Positions 17,231-22,678 of a stretch of 64,000 nucleotides of DNA are shown one piece after another (the first letter of the stretch is position 1; each line of letters starts with the position of its first letter). The notes below the pieces were generated by a model that worked only from the letters and a program-made list of their open reading frames with translations, was not told the DNA's origin and did no database searches. Origin of the DNA: Streptomyces toxytricini (GTDB lineage Bacteria > Actinomycetota > Actinomycetes > Streptomycetales > Streptomycetaceae); contig NZ_BMTY01000004.1 of NCBI RefSeq assembly GCF_014649915.1, positions 61,624 through 125,623 of the forward strand, given 5' to 3'. The position numbers were made by a program, and so were the translations under genes.

Positions 17231-17788
17231 TTAGCAGGAGGAGGCCCGGAAGGAAAAATCGATATCCGCAGCTCGGGCCGCGCGCACGTACGCCCACAGC
17301 AGCGCCTCCGGCCCGGGCAGCCACGGGCGGCGGGTGTCGGGGGCGACGAGCCAGCGGGAGGGGCCGGGCGCCGCGTCCAGCGGCGGCACGCCGACGGCGT
17401 CGCCGAGGCCGTGGCACAGCGGTGCCGGCACCGGGTTCCCCCACTCCTCCCAGGCCAGCAGCGCCGGCAGCCGGTGCGCGGTCCCCGGGGCGGCGAAGAG
17501 CAGCACCCGCCCCCGGTGCACCGCGACGGGACCGCTGCCCGGCCCCTCCGACCACAGCAGGTCCAGCATGCGGCGACCGAGGACCGACGGGACGTTGACG
17601 ACGTCGAAGGCGGTGCCGCAGGGCAGTACGGCCGGGGCCCACGGCCGGGCCTGCCACGCCTCCAGGGTGTCCTCCGGCCGGGCCGATGCCGAGGCGAGCC
17701 AGGCGGCGCCCTGCGCCGTGACCTGGGTGGCCGTACGGGAGTCCCGGTCGGGACAGGCGGAAGCGGAGGCCGTCGTCAGCGTCGTCAT
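17231..17788 (-). CDS. Conserved actinobacterial protein, possibly primase/polymerase-like
   Basis: A 185-aa soluble protein containing PWAPAVLPCGTAFDVVNVPS, HRGRVLLFAAPGTA and RWLVAPDTRRPWLPGPEALL. I recognise this as a family found in streptomycetes, often annotated as a short relative of the bifunctional DNA primase/polymerase N-terminal domain. No catalytic site can be shown from the sequence. It ends 19 bp from tRNA-Lys. Function should be treated as unknown. Confidence 0.65.
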   Translation of the reverse strand: MTTLTTASASACPDRDSRTATQVTAQGAAWLASASARPEDTLEAWQARPWAPAVLPCGTAFDVVNVPSVLGRRMLDLLWSEGPGSGPVAVHRGRVLLFAAPGTAHRLPALLAWEEWGNPVPAPLCHGLGDAVGVPPLDAAPGPSRWLVAPDTRRPWLPGPEALLWAYVRAARAADIDFSFRASSC

Positions 17789-18376: not shown

Positions 18377-18449
18377 TCACGGCCGCCAGGCCGCGCGGTG
18401 CTCCGCGAGGGGGGCCGGCACCGCGTGGTTCGCCGCCCGGCCGTCCGGG
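18377..18449 (-). pseudogene. 73-bp degenerate duplicate of the helicase gene 3' end
   Basis: This segment aligns without gaps to 18514-18586, the end of the helicase reading frame, with about five substitutions in 73 bp including the conserved stop codon. The encoded tails are NHAVPAPLAEHRAAWRP in the copy and NHAVLAHLAEHRVAWRP in the gene. It has no start or body and is a remnant of a partial tandem duplication. Confidence 0.85.
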
Positions 18450-18513
18450 CTGTTTCCGTCGGCCGCCTGCGGCGGCGTGCCGGACTCCGCCCGGCGCGGG
18501 GGCGGCGCTGCGG

Positions 18514-19893
18514 TCACGGCCGCCAGGCCACGCGGTGCTCCGCGAGGTGGGCCAGCACCGCGTGGTTCGCCTCCCAGCCGTCCGGGAACTTCACCGTCAC
18601 GCCCAGTTGGACCGGCTCCGCCGACGGGTGCTCGTCCAGCAGGTCCGCGATGCCCGCCCGGGCCACCACCACGCACGCGTGCCGGTGCCGCGAGGCCAGT
18701 ACGCACAGGCGGCCCGTCTCCAAGTGGAAGGCCGTCGCGTCCGGCCGCCCCGACAGCGGGTGCAGCACCACCGTCAGGTCGTACTCGCGGCCCTGCAGCC
18801 GGTTCGCGGTGTCCACCGTCACGCCCGCCACCCCGAGCCCGGCCAGCGCGGCGCGCACCGCGGCCGCCTGGTCCCGGTGCGCGGTGCCGACCGCGATCCG
18901 GTCGGGGGTGAGCGGGGCCGGGTCGGGGGAGTGCTCGTCGCGGGCGACCGCCCCGCGGTCCAGGGCGCGGCGGACCACCAGGGCCACGGCCCGGACCGCT
19001 TCCGGGTCGGTGCGCGGGGTGTGCCGGGCGGGCAGCTCCAGCAGGCCCCAGCCGGCCTCGGCGGCCTCGTCCAGCACCCGGTCGGGGCCGGAGCCGTCGG
19101 AGGGGGCCCCGTACGAGAGCCTCCGCTCGCCGGGGCCGGTGCCGCTGCGGAACTGCGAGTACGGGTAGAAGGCGCGCGAGACGAGCGGCGCGGCGGTCGC
19201 CGGGAGCCGCCAGGACACGGGCAGCCGGTGCTGCGGCAGCTGCGGGTTGTGCGCGAGCAGCGTGCTGACCGCCGAGGCGGAGGGGTCGTAGGAGAGGCCC
19301 GCCCACTGCTCCGCGCCGACCACGCTGAACGGGTCCAGCTGCCCGGGGTCGCCGACGAACAGGGCCCGCTCGAACAGCCCGGCCACGGCCAGCAGCGCGT
19401 CCGAGCGCATCTGGTAGGCCTCGTCGACGATGGCGTGCTCCCAGGGCTCGGTGTTCTTCACGTACGCCCACTTCGCCGCCGTCGAGATGGTGACCGGCAG
19501 CTCCGCCAGGTCGCCCGGCTTCGCCGACAGGGTGACCGACGGCAGGTCCCGCAGCGCCGGGTCGTATGCGTCGGCGTCGCTGCTGTGCAGGCGGCCCACC
19601 CGCAGCTCCGGGTCCTTGTCGGCGAGCCGCAGCACCAGGTCGTCGACCTGCGCGTTCGTCTGCGCGACGATCATCAGCCGGCGGCCGGCCGCTGCGAGCT
19701 CGCGCGCGGCGCGCACCACCAGGGTGGACTTGCCGGCCCCGGGCGGGGAGTCCACGACGACGCCGCGCTCCGGCCCGTGCAGCGTGTCGCGCAGGATCGC
19801 GGCGGTCGCCGCGGCGGCGGCCGCGCCCGGGTCGGACGCGGCGGGCACGGCGCCGGGGGCGGGCGTGGGGCGGGGGATCGGGCTCGCGGTCAA
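18514..19893 (-). CDS. Superfamily 1 (UPF1/Dna2-type) helicase
   Basis: 459 aa from a TTG start whose TTGA overlaps the stop of the upstream gene. Motif I is SPPGAGKST (49-57) and motif II is DEAY (157-160). Motif III is LFVGDPGQLDPF. The C-terminal part has motif V/VI-like VDTANRLQGREYDLTVV and LASRHRHACVVV. The pattern of an AAA_12-type second RecA domain fits the SF1B group (UPF1, Dna2). An ATP-driven DNA or RNA helicase is a firm family assignment; the substrate is unknown. As the last gene of the nuclease/unknown/helicase operon, it probably works with the RecB-like nuclease. An ATG or GTG start further upstream is not available in frame without deep overlap. Confidence 0.85.
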   Translation of the reverse strand: MTASPIPRPTPAPGAVPAASDPGAAAAAATAAILRDTLHGPERGVVVDSPPGAGKSTLVVRAARELAAAGRRLMIVAQTNAQVDDLVLRLADKDPELRVGRLHSSDADAYDPALRDLPSVTLSAKPGDLAELPVTISTAAKWAYVKNTEPWEHAIVDEAYQMRSDALLAVAGLFERALFVGDPGQLDPFSVVGAEQWAGLSYDPSASAVSTLLAHNPQLPQHRLPVSWRLPATAAPLVSRAFYPYSQFRSGTGPGERRLSYGAPSDGSGPDRVLDEAAEAGWGLLELPARHTPRTDPEAVRAVALVVRRALDRGAVARDEHSPDPAPLTPDRIAVGTAHRDQAAAVRAALAGLGVAGVTVDTANRLQGREYDLTVVLHPLSGRPDATAFHLETGRLCVLASRHRHACVVVARAGIADLLDEHPSAEPVQLGVTVKFPDGWEANHAVLAHLAEHRVAWRP

Positions 19894-21464
19894 AGGAGGT
19901 CCTCGTCGGTCACGGCGTCGGGCTGCCAGGCGGCGGCTTCGGCCGCCGCGGATCCGGGCGGGCCGCCGTGAGTCCACGGGGTCTGCTCCGGGTCGGGCAG
20001 CTTCGGGCCGCCCCGCGCGTCGTGCTCGAACAGCGTCCAGCAGATGCGGTCGCCCTTCTCCGGCACCGAGCCGGGCTCCGGCTCGCGGCCGCGGCCCATC
20101 TTGTCCAGCAGCCGCAGCACCAGGCGGCCGTCCTCCTCGCGGCGGACGAACTGCGCGCTCTGCGGGCGCCCGTCCAGGGAGCGGTACACCTTCTGGCCGC
20201 CCTCCTCCGCGAGCTGCGGCCGGTCCTCGGTGAACACGGTGACCAGGGGGCGGGGGCTCGGCCGCTTGGAGTCGGTCCACTCCATGACGACCTCGGTGAC
20301 CTCGCCCGCGAAGGCCTCGCCGGCGAGCCGCCGGCCGGCCATGACCAGCGGGTCGTCCAGGGCCTCCTGGGCGTCGAGGCGCACCTGCTCCGTCTCCCGA
20401 GTCGCGAGCTTCTGCGCCGCGGTGACCGCGTCGTCGCGGCGCGGCTGCGGCGGCTCGCCCGCCCGGACCCGGTCGCGGTGCCCGGTGTAGGACCAGCGGT
20501 CGCGGACCCAGCGCTCCTCGGCCCGCTCGGCGGGCGGCAGGCCGCGCAGCAGGTCCAGGGCCCGCCACACCGCGTCCCAGGTGGGGCGCATCTGCCCGGC
20601 GACCAGCTCGCGGACCTCCTCCGCGGCGCGGGCCGCCTGCGCCGGGCGGCCGGAGGCGCGCGCGGCGTCGTAGCGGGCCATGGCGGGGGCCAGCAGCTTG
20701 TTGTCGAAGGCCGGGTCGGTGGCGGGCCCGGCGGGCGGGACCAGGAGGCGGCCCTCCCGGTCGCGGCCCGACTCGGCGCGGAGCGCGGCCGCGGCGCCGG
20801 ACTCGCCCTCCGGGGGGTCGATCCAGGCGAGCAGGGCGCCCAGGTGCTGGTCCTCCAGGTTGCTCTGGCCGGTCGCCCAGTGCCGGGCCAGCACCTCCGT
20901 CGCCGCGAGCAGCATGGCCGAGCCGGGGACGCGGGAGCGCTCGCCGAGGTGGGTGAGCCAGCGCCCCAGCAGCGGGACCCGGGCGGGCGCCGGGTACGGG
21001 TTGTCGGGGTCTTCCTCGGCGGTGCGGCGGAACCGCATCGACCGGCCCAGCAGGCGCACGTGGTCGACGCCGGCGCGGCTGGGGACGACCAGCTGGGGGG
21101 CGTCCAGGCACAGCTCGGCGGAGACCTTGCCGCGCACGCCGGTCTCCGGGTCGGTCTCGGTGCGTTCGACCGGTTCGACGGCGTCGGCGTACGACTCGAC
21201 GTACGGCAGGACCTCGTCGGCGAGGTCGGCGAGGAAGGACCAGCGCAGGTCGCGGTCGCGGGGCTGCGGCACGACCAGCAGCCGGGGTGCGGCCCGGTCG
21301 GTGCCGACGAGCGCGCCGAGGGGCGCGCCGGCCTCGCCCGCGGTGGTCAGCGGGACGAGGACGAGCGGGCGCTCGGACAGGTGGCGGTGGCGGACGGTCG
21401 CCAGCGGGCGGGCCCGGCCCGCGCGGACCGCCTCCAGGCGGGCGAGGGTGTTCAGCAGGGGCAT
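19890..21464 (-). CDS. Unknown protein of the nuclease-helicase operon
   Basis: A 524-aa soluble protein with no recognised domain, signal peptide or membrane segment. ATG21464 is preceded by GAGGAGG. The start lies 13 bp inside the end of the nuclease gene, and the stop shares TTGA with the helicase start, so all three are translationally coupled. The N-terminal third is Arg-rich with ERPLVLVPLTTAG and PRLLVVPQPRDRDLRW. The middle is helical, and the C-terminus (about 385-480) looks beta-rich (EVTEVVMEWTDSKR, RLVLRLLDKMGRG). It may be the adaptor or specificity subunit of a nuclease-helicase complex; that is inference from the operon only. Confidence 0.82.
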   Translation of the reverse strand: MPLLNTLARLEAVRAGRARPLATVRHRHLSERPLVLVPLTTAGEAGAPLGALVGTDRAAPRLLVVPQPRDRDLRWSFLADLADEVLPYVESYADAVEPVERTETDPETGVRGKVSAELCLDAPQLVVPSRAGVDHVRLLGRSMRFRRTAEEDPDNPYPAPARVPLLGRWLTHLGERSRVPGSAMLLAATEVLARHWATGQSNLEDQHLGALLAWIDPPEGESGAAAALRAESGRDREGRLLVPPAGPATDPAFDNKLLAPAMARYDAARASGRPAQAARAAEEVRELVAGQMRPTWDAVWRALDLLRGLPPAERAEERWVRDRWSYTGHRDRVRAGEPPQPRRDDAVTAAQKLATRETEQVRLDAQEALDDPLVMAGRRLAGEAFAGEVTEVVMEWTDSKRPSPRPLVTVFTEDRPQLAEEGGQKVYRSLDGRPQSAQFVRREEDGRLVLRLLDKMGRGREPEPGSVPEKGDRICWTLFEHDARGGPKLPDPEQTPWTHGGPPGSAAAEAAAWQPDAVTDEDLL

Positions 21465-22678
21465 GCGCCCTCCTCGGGGGCCTCGGCGCCTTCCGCGGCG
21501 GCGAGGGCCCGGGCGGCGGCGCGGTCCGCGGCCTCGGCGAGGGCCTCGGCGCGCAGCCGGGCCGCCTGGAGCAGGGCGGCGGCGGTCGGGTCGTCGGCGG
21601 GGCCGCGGCCGGCGGCGGCGTCGAGGGCCTGGGCGACGGTGGCGCACCCGCCGAGTTCCCCGCGGACGGAGCGGCCGAGCGCCGTGGCCTCGCCGGCGGC
21701 GCGGGCCCGTTCCCGGCAGTGGAAGGCCAGCTCGCAGGCGGAGAGGCATTCGGGGGCGTAGGAGGCGGAGACGGCGGCGACGGCCTCGGTGAGTTCGTCG
21801 GCGGGCCGGGCCGGGTCGAAGGTGAGCCCCGGGGGGAGGTCCGCGGCGAGCTCCTCGACCCGGGTGAGGCGGGCGAGCTGGCGGCGGGTGACCGCGCGCT
21901 CGCGGCGTACGTCGACGGGGGCGGCGGCCGGCTGGTTGGAGAAGTCCTTCGGGCAGACGAGGAGCACGGTGTGCCCGACCTCGGCGGCTTCCACCTTGGC
22001 GGCGGTCGCCTCCAGGGCGAGGACGTACACGGCGGCCTGCCGGGCGGCGGCGCCGACCTTGGCGGGGTCGGCGGAGCCGTCGAGCAGCGGGAACGACTTG
22101 ACCTCCACGACGGTCCAGCGGCCGTCGGGGTGGACGACGACGGCGTCGGGCTCCAGGTACGCGGGGGTGCCGGCGACCTCCAGGGCGAGCATCGGGTGGT
22201 CCAGCAGGGTCCACTCGCCGGCGGTGGTGGCCTCGCGCAGGGCGAGCGCCGTCCGGGCGGCGCGGCCCTCGGGGCCGGCGGCGGCGAGGTCGGGGACGCG
22301 GGCGCCGGCGCGGGGCGGTTCTGCGCCGGCTCCGAGGTGGAGGTGGACCAGGCGGAGCAGCTCGGCCCCGCCGTCGCCCTTGACCTTGGCCTCGAAGGAG
22401 TTCCCGCGGATGATCGCGAACTGCGACTGGCCGAACGGCGCGGGTGAGCCGAGGGCCGCCGCCAGTGCCGTCTTGTCGACTCCGGCCCCGTCCAGGAGGG
22501 CGCGTCTGCCGCAGCCCGGGTTCGCGGCGAGCGCCGCCAGCGCGCGGGCGTCGAGCGGACGGGGAGGCACGGCCGGGCCGCGCAGGTCAGCGAGCCGCTG
22601 CCGCAGTGTCGTCGTCTGGGGCGGGCCGCTGTGCGGGTAGGAGCTCACGGGCGGAAGTGTCCCATCCGCCACTGACAA
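21452..22678 (-). CDS. PD-(D/E)XK nuclease of the Cas4/Dna2/AddB iron-staple type
   Basis: Up to 408 aa. Using TTG22678 as residue 1, the RecB-nuclease motifs are Asp178 in LEPDAVV, Glu192-x-Lys194 in VVEVKS and the QxxxY motif at Gln214-Tyr218 (RQAAVYVLAL). A lone N-terminal Cys56 and a C-terminal Cys311-x3-Cys315-x5-Cys321 cluster fit a 4Fe-4S staple as in Cas4, AddB and Dna2 (usual spacing x2/x5). It is predicted to be a DNA exonuclease or endonuclease. The start is uncertain: TTG22678, GTG22672 and GTG22648 all lie inside the upstream PAP2 gene and none has a clear Shine-Dalgarno. The 3' end overlaps the next gene by 13 bp. Confidence 0.8.
   Translation of the reverse strand: MSVADGTLPPVSSYPHSGPPQTTTLRQRLADLRGPAVPPRPLDARALAALAANPGCGRRALLDGAGVDKTALAAALGSPAPFGQSQFAIIRGNSFEAKVKGDGGAELLRLVHLHLGAGAEPPRAGARVPDLAAAGPEGRAARTALALREATTAGEWTLLDHPMLALEVAGTPAYLEPDAVVVHPDGRWTVVEVKSFPLLDGSADPAKVGAAARQAAVYVLALEATAAKVEAAEVGHTVLLVCPKDFSNQPAAAPVDVRRERAVTRRQLARLTRVEELAADLPPGLTFDPARPADELTEAVAAVSASYAPECLSACELAFHCRERARAAGEATALGRSVRGELGGCATVAQALDAAAGRGPADDPTAAALLQAARLRAEALAEAADRAAARALAAAEGAEAPEEGACPC

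Follow-up and report, generated by a model that had tools for sequence, protein, structure and literature searches.

A set of three overlapping genes lies on the minus strand of a 64,000-nt stretch of Streptomyces toxytricini DNA (contig NZ_BMTY01000004.1, positions 61,624 to 125,623), which is called the window below and belongs to a genome of 7.2 Mb. The genes code, in this order, for a nuclease with a PD-(D/E)XK active site, a middle protein and a helicase of superfamily 1B (SF1B) (Table 1). All three frames are open, and the head-to-tail overlaps described in an earlier note on this DNA, the first of 13 bp and the second TTGA, are present. Overlapping junctions are common among relatives of the set: 4-nt overlaps, with start codons chosen by us, occur at 42 of 79 nuclease-middle and 26 of 59 middle-helicase junctions. 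The nuclease frame is open from TTG 22678, as had been noted, but GTG 22648, 30 bases further in, is the likelier start, because a conserved promoter-like block (TTGTCAGTG...) begins with the TTG at 22678. The nuclease would then probably have 398 residues.

Table 1. Features of the three-gene set in the window, with examples of a fourth gene found in other lineages
Feature	Position	Strand	Remarks
Three-gene set	22678-18514	-	Open frames; order nuclease, middle, helicase
Nuclease gene	21452..22648	-	398 aa from GTG 22648; 408 aa from TTG 22678; PD-(D/E)XK and iron-staple cysteines
Middle gene	19890..21464	-	524 aa; N-terminal alpha/beta part, long helices 251-380, C-terminal beta barrel (predicted structure)
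Helicase gene	18514..19893	-	459 aa; TTG start overlaps preceding stop; SF1B motor (1A/2A)
RecA-NDp/PafBC-type motif TTGTCAGTG-N8-nAnnnT	22656..22678	-	One mismatch to published consensus; overlaps TTG start
Nuclease Cys56 codon	22511..22513	-	Lone N-terminal cysteine of predicted Fe-S staple; invariant 69/69
Nuclease active-site codons, Asp178, Glu192-x-Lys194, Gln214-x3-Tyr218	22025..22147	-	D 67/69, E 68/69, K 69/69, Q 68/69, Y 69/69
Nuclease Cys311-x3-Cys315-x5-Cys321 codons	21716..21748	-	C-terminal cluster; invariant 69/69
Middle-protein barrel, residues 384-480	20025..20315	-	Predicted structure matches 1B domain of UPF1-like helicases
Helicase Walker A codons GAGKST, residues 52-57	19723..19740	-	G52, G54, K55 invariant 37/37
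Fourth gene, examples	L124 8026-8820; L234 7675-8511		

Two short peptide patterns, run against 84,980 species genomes, gave at least 449 relatives; 80 of these, all from actinomycetes judging by their names, were kept and are referred to as the 80 named loci. The window was aligned with 72 (alignment A5) and with 68 (alignment A6, 69 rows) of the named loci, leaving out near-duplicates (L065, L066, L068-L070) and truncated, over-long or odd-start rows, and 36 of the 53 usable helicases were aligned with that of the window (alignment A7). Two loci of one genome (L032 and L052 of G010), with an assembly gap over the nuclease, are left out of the nuclease counts. The genus, in all counts, is Streptomyces.

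The residues on which the nuclease had been recognised, Asp178, Glu192-x-Lys194, Gln214-x3-Tyr218, Cys56 and the C-x3-C-x5-C cluster, all stand where the earlier note placed them and are conserved across the 69 rows. Of 149 nuclease sequences, to which some genomes contribute twice, 140 have canonical residues throughout, and the four cysteines are complete in 147; the two others are one protein met twice (L034, L054), its N-terminus cut by the choice of start. Seven sequences, in two tree groups (L047, L217 and L219; L123, L131, L133 and L232), have altered catalytic residues, and all seven keep the four cysteines. Retention of the cysteines therefore does not depend on catalysis, which is what a structural cluster would lead one to expect.

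The sequence libraries give only a sub-threshold match of the nuclease to PDDEXK_1 (E 0.006), and the PDB gives none with the single sequence and only designed-protein repeats with the profile. The fold was compared through an AlphaFold2 model built from the 69 sequences, with a mean predicted local distance difference test score (pLDDT) of 87.8. By structural alignment (VIA) the best match is Cas4 7mi4 (Z 10.7, root-mean-square deviation (rmsd) 4.3, 196 aligned), and further matches are type I-C Cas4 (9.5), EXO5 (8.8), AddAB (8.6), AdnA (8.1) and SSO0001 (8.1); Dna2 5ean is matched at Z 7.0 (rmsd 4.6, 211 aligned). Foldseek returns Cas4-family ACE1 as the best match (8.3e-4), the sole one below 0.001. 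Structural comparison and the four invariant cysteines together uphold the RecB-type core with an iron-staple cysteine layout that had been proposed, and support assignment of the nuclease to the Cas4/AddB/Dna2 (iron-staple) type. The same spanning cysteines predict an iron-sulphur (Fe-S) cluster in the protein.

The helicase matches AAA_11 (1.2e-11) and AAA_30 in the libraries. Its best sequence match in the PDB is DNA2 (5.8e-9), followed by SMUBP-2, and its profile finds SMUBP-2, DNA2 and UPF1. The key residues of Walker A and Walker B, of GD-x2-Q and of Q367-G368-x-E370, and R402/R404, are invariant in all 37 helicases, in agreement with the SF1B-type helicase with intact Walker motifs that the earlier note described. 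In these proteins the Walker A lysine has only 26-57 residues ahead of it, so the chain has no room for a 1B barrel and its stalk. The matches and motifs support a helicase of the Dna2/UPF1-like SF1B group, closest to DNA2 and SMUBP-2, that consists of a 1A/2A motor without 1B. Just past the helicase stop codon, and in a different frame, is a diverged second copy of the last ~20 residues of the helicase (18380-18451, minus strand, ...ANHAVPAPLAEHRAAWRP), and comparable copies of the tail occur in three related loci (L018, L020, L023).

The middle protein reaches no family above cut-off in the sequence libraries, NCBIfam, PADLOC or PHROGs; in the last three the set has matches for the helicase only, and these are partial. 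Its profile gives a best E of 1.3 against the PDB. The earlier description of a protein of no known domain holds for the sequence but not for the predicted structure, in which a barrel can be recognised. The model (mean pLDDT 91.1) has the N-terminal alpha/beta part and the long helices followed by barrel strands at 384-477 and a tail. The top structural match of the barrel is senataxin (Z 8.9, rmsd 2.3, 81 aligned), with Sen1 at Z 8.4, and lower matches are IGHMBP2 (Z 7.6, rmsd 5.1, 124 aligned, including the preceding helix) and UPF1 (7.3). The 1B domains of senataxin, Sen1 and IGHMBP2 are all within the top ten. The matching stretch of IGHMBP2 spans residues 3-146 of its chain, and its match to the motor begins at residue 201. 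Families absent from the structure match lists are not counted as excluded. The middle protein probably carries, on the predicted fold, the helicase's missing 1B barrel, supplied in trans.

Residues 31-375 of the middle protein match the exonuclease domains of poxvirus polymerases (Z up to 8.8, rmsd 4.0, 187 residues, 5% identity), and an RNase_H_2 domain occupies the corresponding place in the four fused Dna2-like proteins that were scanned. This likeness of the predicted N-terminal fold to an exonuclease domain is taken as a hint only.

The three genes are widely kept together. A survey of their joint conservation found all three in order in 58 of the 80 named loci and the nuclease and middle genes only in 21, the remaining locus being cut before the nuclease. 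The gap between the middle and helicase genes is at most 341 bp in 55 of the 58, and 1.0-2.4 kb in L099, L100 and L116. None of the 58 has the nuclease and the helicase fused; the two chains stay separate, unlike Dna2, as the earlier note had it. The middle protein is present in 32 of 41 close relatives, including 25/25 of Streptomyces; at the level of the class, 48 of 296 genomes have it (27/28 of Streptomyces). When a single nuclease sequence was used as query on a sample of the phylum, 5 of 149 genomes were found.

A resemblance to single-chain proteins is evident from the order of the parts. Like Bad (from Geobacillus, with a second class in mycobacteria) and the TIGR03491-type proteins, the set has a four-cysteine nuclease first and an SF1B motor last; unlike them it is made of three chains rather than one, and its nuclease and middle protein have no detectable homology to the fused set. 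Bad has 5'-3' translocase/helicase activity and a nuclease activity on single-stranded DNA, as given in an excerpt of PMC7430649. The fused actinobacterial proteins used for comparison come from 10 of 14 loci (set A8; L172, L174, L176 and L185 are excluded for wrong or short frames). Their order is nuclease, RNase_H_2, a stretch, and AAA_11/12, and the four scanned contain RNase_H_2, AAA_11 and AAA_12 in order, with PDDEXK_1 ahead in two. The helicase is homologous to theirs: its profile aligns with the ten fused bacterial Dna2-like proteins over 358 columns with 24% identity (E 1.4e-22, for one comparison). Geobacillus Bad is likened to the set by description only. Membership of TIGR03491/Bad by sequence was tried with whole profiles and domain cuts, both locally and globally, and was rejected, as only the helicase aligned.

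The split and the fused types rarely occur together. TIGR03491 (TM0106) has no match in the genome of S. toxytricini and none above the cut-off in 28 Streptomyces genomes, with three weak matches below it. Among the 296 genomes of the class, 48 have the split set and 99 a TIGR03491 match above cut-off, and 2 have both versus 16 expected (one-sided p 2e-7); without Streptomyces the count is 2 versus 7.8 expected (p 0.004). Two families, f64 (7 with the set, 13 with the fused type) and f65 (10 and 14), account for 17 of the 21 sets outside Streptomyces and have no genome with both, and the sole set-bearing genomes of families f6 and f91 hold both types. It looks as though one type has replaced the other, with shared ancestry inflating the genome-level figures. 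By genus, 2 are shared versus 3.9 expected, which is not significant (p 0.18), and mutual exclusion is for this reason used as support only.

Other known systems share single parts with the set. It is like eukaryotic DNA2 and the Mre11-Rad50-Dna2 set in its nuclease fold, in the top match of its helicase and in the relatives of SbcD and SbcC that adjoin some copies, and unlike eukaryotic DNA2 in having three chains and a C-x3-C-x5-C spacing; the spacing in Dna2 is C-x2-C-x5-C. Similarly, it is like the nuclease domains of Cas4, AddB and AdnA in fold and four-cysteine layout, but its nuclease is a separate chain that adjoins an SF1B helicase rather than lying within a UvrD-type one. Unlike AddAB, AdnAB and RecBCD, it has no UvrD-like SF1A motor fused to a nuclease, its motor being of the AAA_11/DNA2/SMUBP-2 (SF1B) kind. 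It is like the UPF1-like helicases (IGHMBP2/SMUBP-2, senataxin, Sen1, UPF1) in its motor family and probably in a 1B barrel with a helix before it, and unlike them in having barrel and motor on separate chains. The three-gene set is not described in the titles and abstract openings of the literature searched, subscription papers and preprints aside.

The start of the operon carries a candidate control element. The initial bases of the TTG frame, TTGTCAGTGGCGGATGGGACACT, agree with one mismatch with the RecA-NDp/PafBC consensus tTGTCRgtg-8 nt-TAnnnT (excerpt of PMC5656591). In the 21 core loci of Streptomyces that reach the site (L025, L026 and L029 fall short, and each genome enters once), TTGTC is present in all, TTGTCRGTG in full in 19 (L018 and L028 differ at the last base), and A-x-ACT at a -10-like place in all; the motif block is sharply conserved relative to the preceding sequence. 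Copies outside the core have no motif match of fewer than two mismatches. If translation starts at GTG 22648, just past the -10-like element, the transcript would be leaderless or nearly so.

A relaxed motif, defined after the window's site had been seen so that the match of this site is by design, occurs at 13 sites in the S. toxytricini genome and at none with the reversed control. Genes downstream of these sites include recA and a macrodomain gene. An excerpt of PMC5087735 reports promoters of this type for Streptomyces recA and upstream of SCO6735, a UV-inducible macrodomain gene, to which orthology of the macrodomain gene found here is not assumed. A stricter motif ending in AGACTTC was found in 39 of 61 Streptomyces genomes, with none for the reversed control and positions checked for part of the matches; the genome of S. 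toxytricini reads ACACT, and hence is outside the 39. The shared motif suggests that the operon may be induced by DNA damage. Further genes that follow the 13 sites (L241-L253) are of the AAA_5, WGR-domain and HEPN (SAV_6107-like) kinds, and they are possible members of the same damage regulon.

We consider it somewhat probable that the operon is a Dna2-type nuclease-helicase split over three chains, of which the middle one supplies the stalk and the 1B domain in trans. This is the best reading because the predicted fold, a motor that lacks exactly 1B, and the gene order agree; the fold alone does not decide. The set is best read, by analogy, as working like Dna2 and Bad, and is not classed as a member of their group because homology of its nuclease and middle protein to the fused type is undetectable. 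Several results weigh against the split-enzyme reading, among them the altered catalytic residues of seven nucleases and the genus-level figure given above. In hhalign comparisons the nuclease is not significant against the fused proteins (P 0.1), and the middle barrel against the fused stalk and barrel gives P 0.058; both values are background, because a mismatched control pair, the N-terminus of the middle protein against the helicase, scored 0.027. LHK-Exo (9.1), lambda exonuclease (8.5), MGME1 (8.4) and RecE (8.3), which are not known to carry Fe-S, fall among the Fe-S relatives in the scores of the nuclease model and match it as well as those other than Cas4, so the iron-staple group cannot be told apart by fold alone. 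Barrels of the FNR-like and F1-ATPase kinds score Z 7.2-7.7 against the middle-protein barrel, versus 8.9 for senataxin, and the structural aligner warns that Z below 8 may reflect a common arrangement only. Foldseek places flavin and ATPase barrels first for the middle protein, with none at E <= 0.001. As for regulation, an excerpt of PMC9380542 reports that the PafBC motif of M. smegmatis did not turn up as conserved in S. venezuelae in a first search. Finally, the helicase gene is not beside the pair in 20 of the 80 loci having enough flank.

The last of these points, together with the near-equal scores of non-helicase barrels, favours a different arrangement, in which the nuclease and middle protein form one enzyme, the helicase is a separate and complete motor that is merely co-transcribed, and the barrel is unrelated to 1B. 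The pair-only loci, all 21 of them in Micromonospora or Verrucosispora, are informative here. The flank past the middle gene is 4.7-10 kb in 20 of them, and the contig of L126 stops within that gene. All 21 genomes nevertheless have a helicase match somewhere (in G210 as two fragments at contig ends), and of the seven where its locus was determined, five have it downstream on the same strand, 10-81 kb off, on a contig taken as the same by its equal length, and two have it on another contig. The overlapping gene junctions and a motor chain without room for its own 1B also speak against a self-sufficient helicase. We regard this arrangement as unlikely, and prefer the split enzyme with 1B in trans.

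The surroundings of the operon bear on its role. In the Streptomyces core the same phosphatase and PAP2 genes precede it in all 10 loci examined, and a small gene of 115 aa lies downstream in all nine core loci that reach so far, in L044 after ~5 kb of other sequence. A further gene downstream of the operon (17231-17788, minus strand, 185 aa) has a match to a Prim-Pol N-terminal domain (2.3e-5) and a sub-cut-off match to the SCO3374 family, and was found in 8 of 10 core loci examined. The conserved neighbourhood and the damage-type motif strengthen the case that the core copy has a role in DNA repair. The earlier note had argued from the position among core genes for repair rather than a defence island. 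This holds for the core copy and is limited to it, because divergent copies sit beside defence genes.

Neighbours were counted in 128 loci, partly chosen as second copies and thus not a random sample. SbcD or SbcC relatives stand beside the set in eight (SbcD only in L049) and pPIWI-RE genes nearby in three (L047, L217, L219). DUF2397 is confirmed by Pfam in three, L049, L058 and L234, all among the eight; DUF2397 and DUF2398 are presumably type III Wadjet components. In a tree of 61 middle proteins the ten core rows group together with full support, the three pPIWI-RE-linked rows form a second group, and the eight SbcCD-linked rows fall in three places, with which a single origin is still compatible. 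The nucleases of the three loci by the pPIWI-RE island (L047, 7841-9001; L217; L219) have lost the ExK motif (LIR instead), and another PDDEXK_1 gene adjoins.

Such company raises the alternative that the set is mainly an anti-phage or anti-plasmid system fixed in Streptomyces, whose nuclease and helicase destroy invading DNA. It would account for the pPIWI-RE and DUF2397 neighbours of the divergent copies. A GmrSD_N gene (L099, 11574-13916) and a RhuM gene (L100, 11503-12552), inserted between the middle and helicase genes in two Micromonospora species, point the same way, as do the partial matches of the helicase to defence helicases, PADLOC MkoA (1.5e-9) and NCBIfam PLuB_AAA (7.7e-16, far under the cut-off). 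The nuclease and middle protein have no match to PADLOC defence systems at E <= 1. The core copy argues otherwise, with its constant neighbourhood, its near-universal presence in the genus and a motif shared with recA. SbcD/SbcC neighbours are moreover at least as common as pPIWI-RE or DUF2397 ones, but the three DUF2397 loci are within the eight. A mainly defensive function appears improbable to us. A viral origin was rejected, as a single scan of viral contigs, with the middle protein as query, gave no relative, which also speaks against the defence alternative, and no viral fold matched at E <= 0.001.

Outside the Streptomyces core a fourth gene often accompanies the set. It codes for a protein of 265-290 aa with a charged N-terminus that by eye looks like a coiled coil, and with LRRDEE and RPYY motifs; Pfam gives no match and NCBIfam none above cut-off. 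The gene is present in 71 of 129 loci. In 53 of the 80 named loci it lies upstream, always on the strand of the nuclease, and ends within ~0.4 kb of the nuclease start; four of the 27 without it (L084, L104, L114, L115) reach too little upstream. A six-gene run on one strand in Kibdelosporangium (L124) starts with the fourth gene and continues with nuclease, middle, helicase, SbcD and SbcC. The fourth gene is absent from the Streptomyces core, and the five of 41 relatives that have it are the five that carry a divergent copy. Matches occur in 16 of the 296 class genomes; 13 are strong, and all 13 of these genomes hold the set, and those in G286, G468 and G327 are weak or broken. No match was found in 35 of the 48 set-bearing class genomes.

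For the split nuclease-helicase a course of action can be proposed. DNA damage would switch the operon on through the RecA-NDp/PafBC-type promoter. The middle protein, through its long helices and C-terminal barrel, would make up in trans for what the motor lacks and hold the nuclease to the motor, and the complex would load on a junction or a broken end. The motor would then unwind DNA or translocate along one strand, and the nuclease would cut the strand fed to it. The outcome would be end resection or the processing of flaps or junctions, as for Dna2 and, by analogy, single-chain Bad. We infer complex formation, 1B in trans, the Fe-S cluster, damage induction, polarity and the repair role alike.

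A wider proposal, which we put forward tentatively, is that the set represents a new actinobacterial DNA-end-processing module, with three subunits and 1B in trans. It would be damage-inducible housekeeping in Streptomyces and have a fourth subunit in many other lineages, with divergent copies recruited, perhaps more than once, beside SbcCD, pPIWI-RE and DUF2397 genes. As parts of the same tentative proposal, the SbcCD-linked copies may be a bacterial counterpart of the Mre11-Rad50-Dna2 set, and the pPIWI-RE lineage may have lost the nuclease site while keeping the four cysteines.

If the split enzyme is real, nuclease, accessory or 1B part, and motor would be separable and mixable, and what the 1B barrel and the cysteine-bearing nuclease each contribute could be tested directly. 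Streptomyces linear chromosomes depend on break repair, and the genus would gain a near-universal, possibly damage-induced candidate for resection. One module tied both to SbcCD and to defence genes would also be a DNA-end machine used for repair and conflict.

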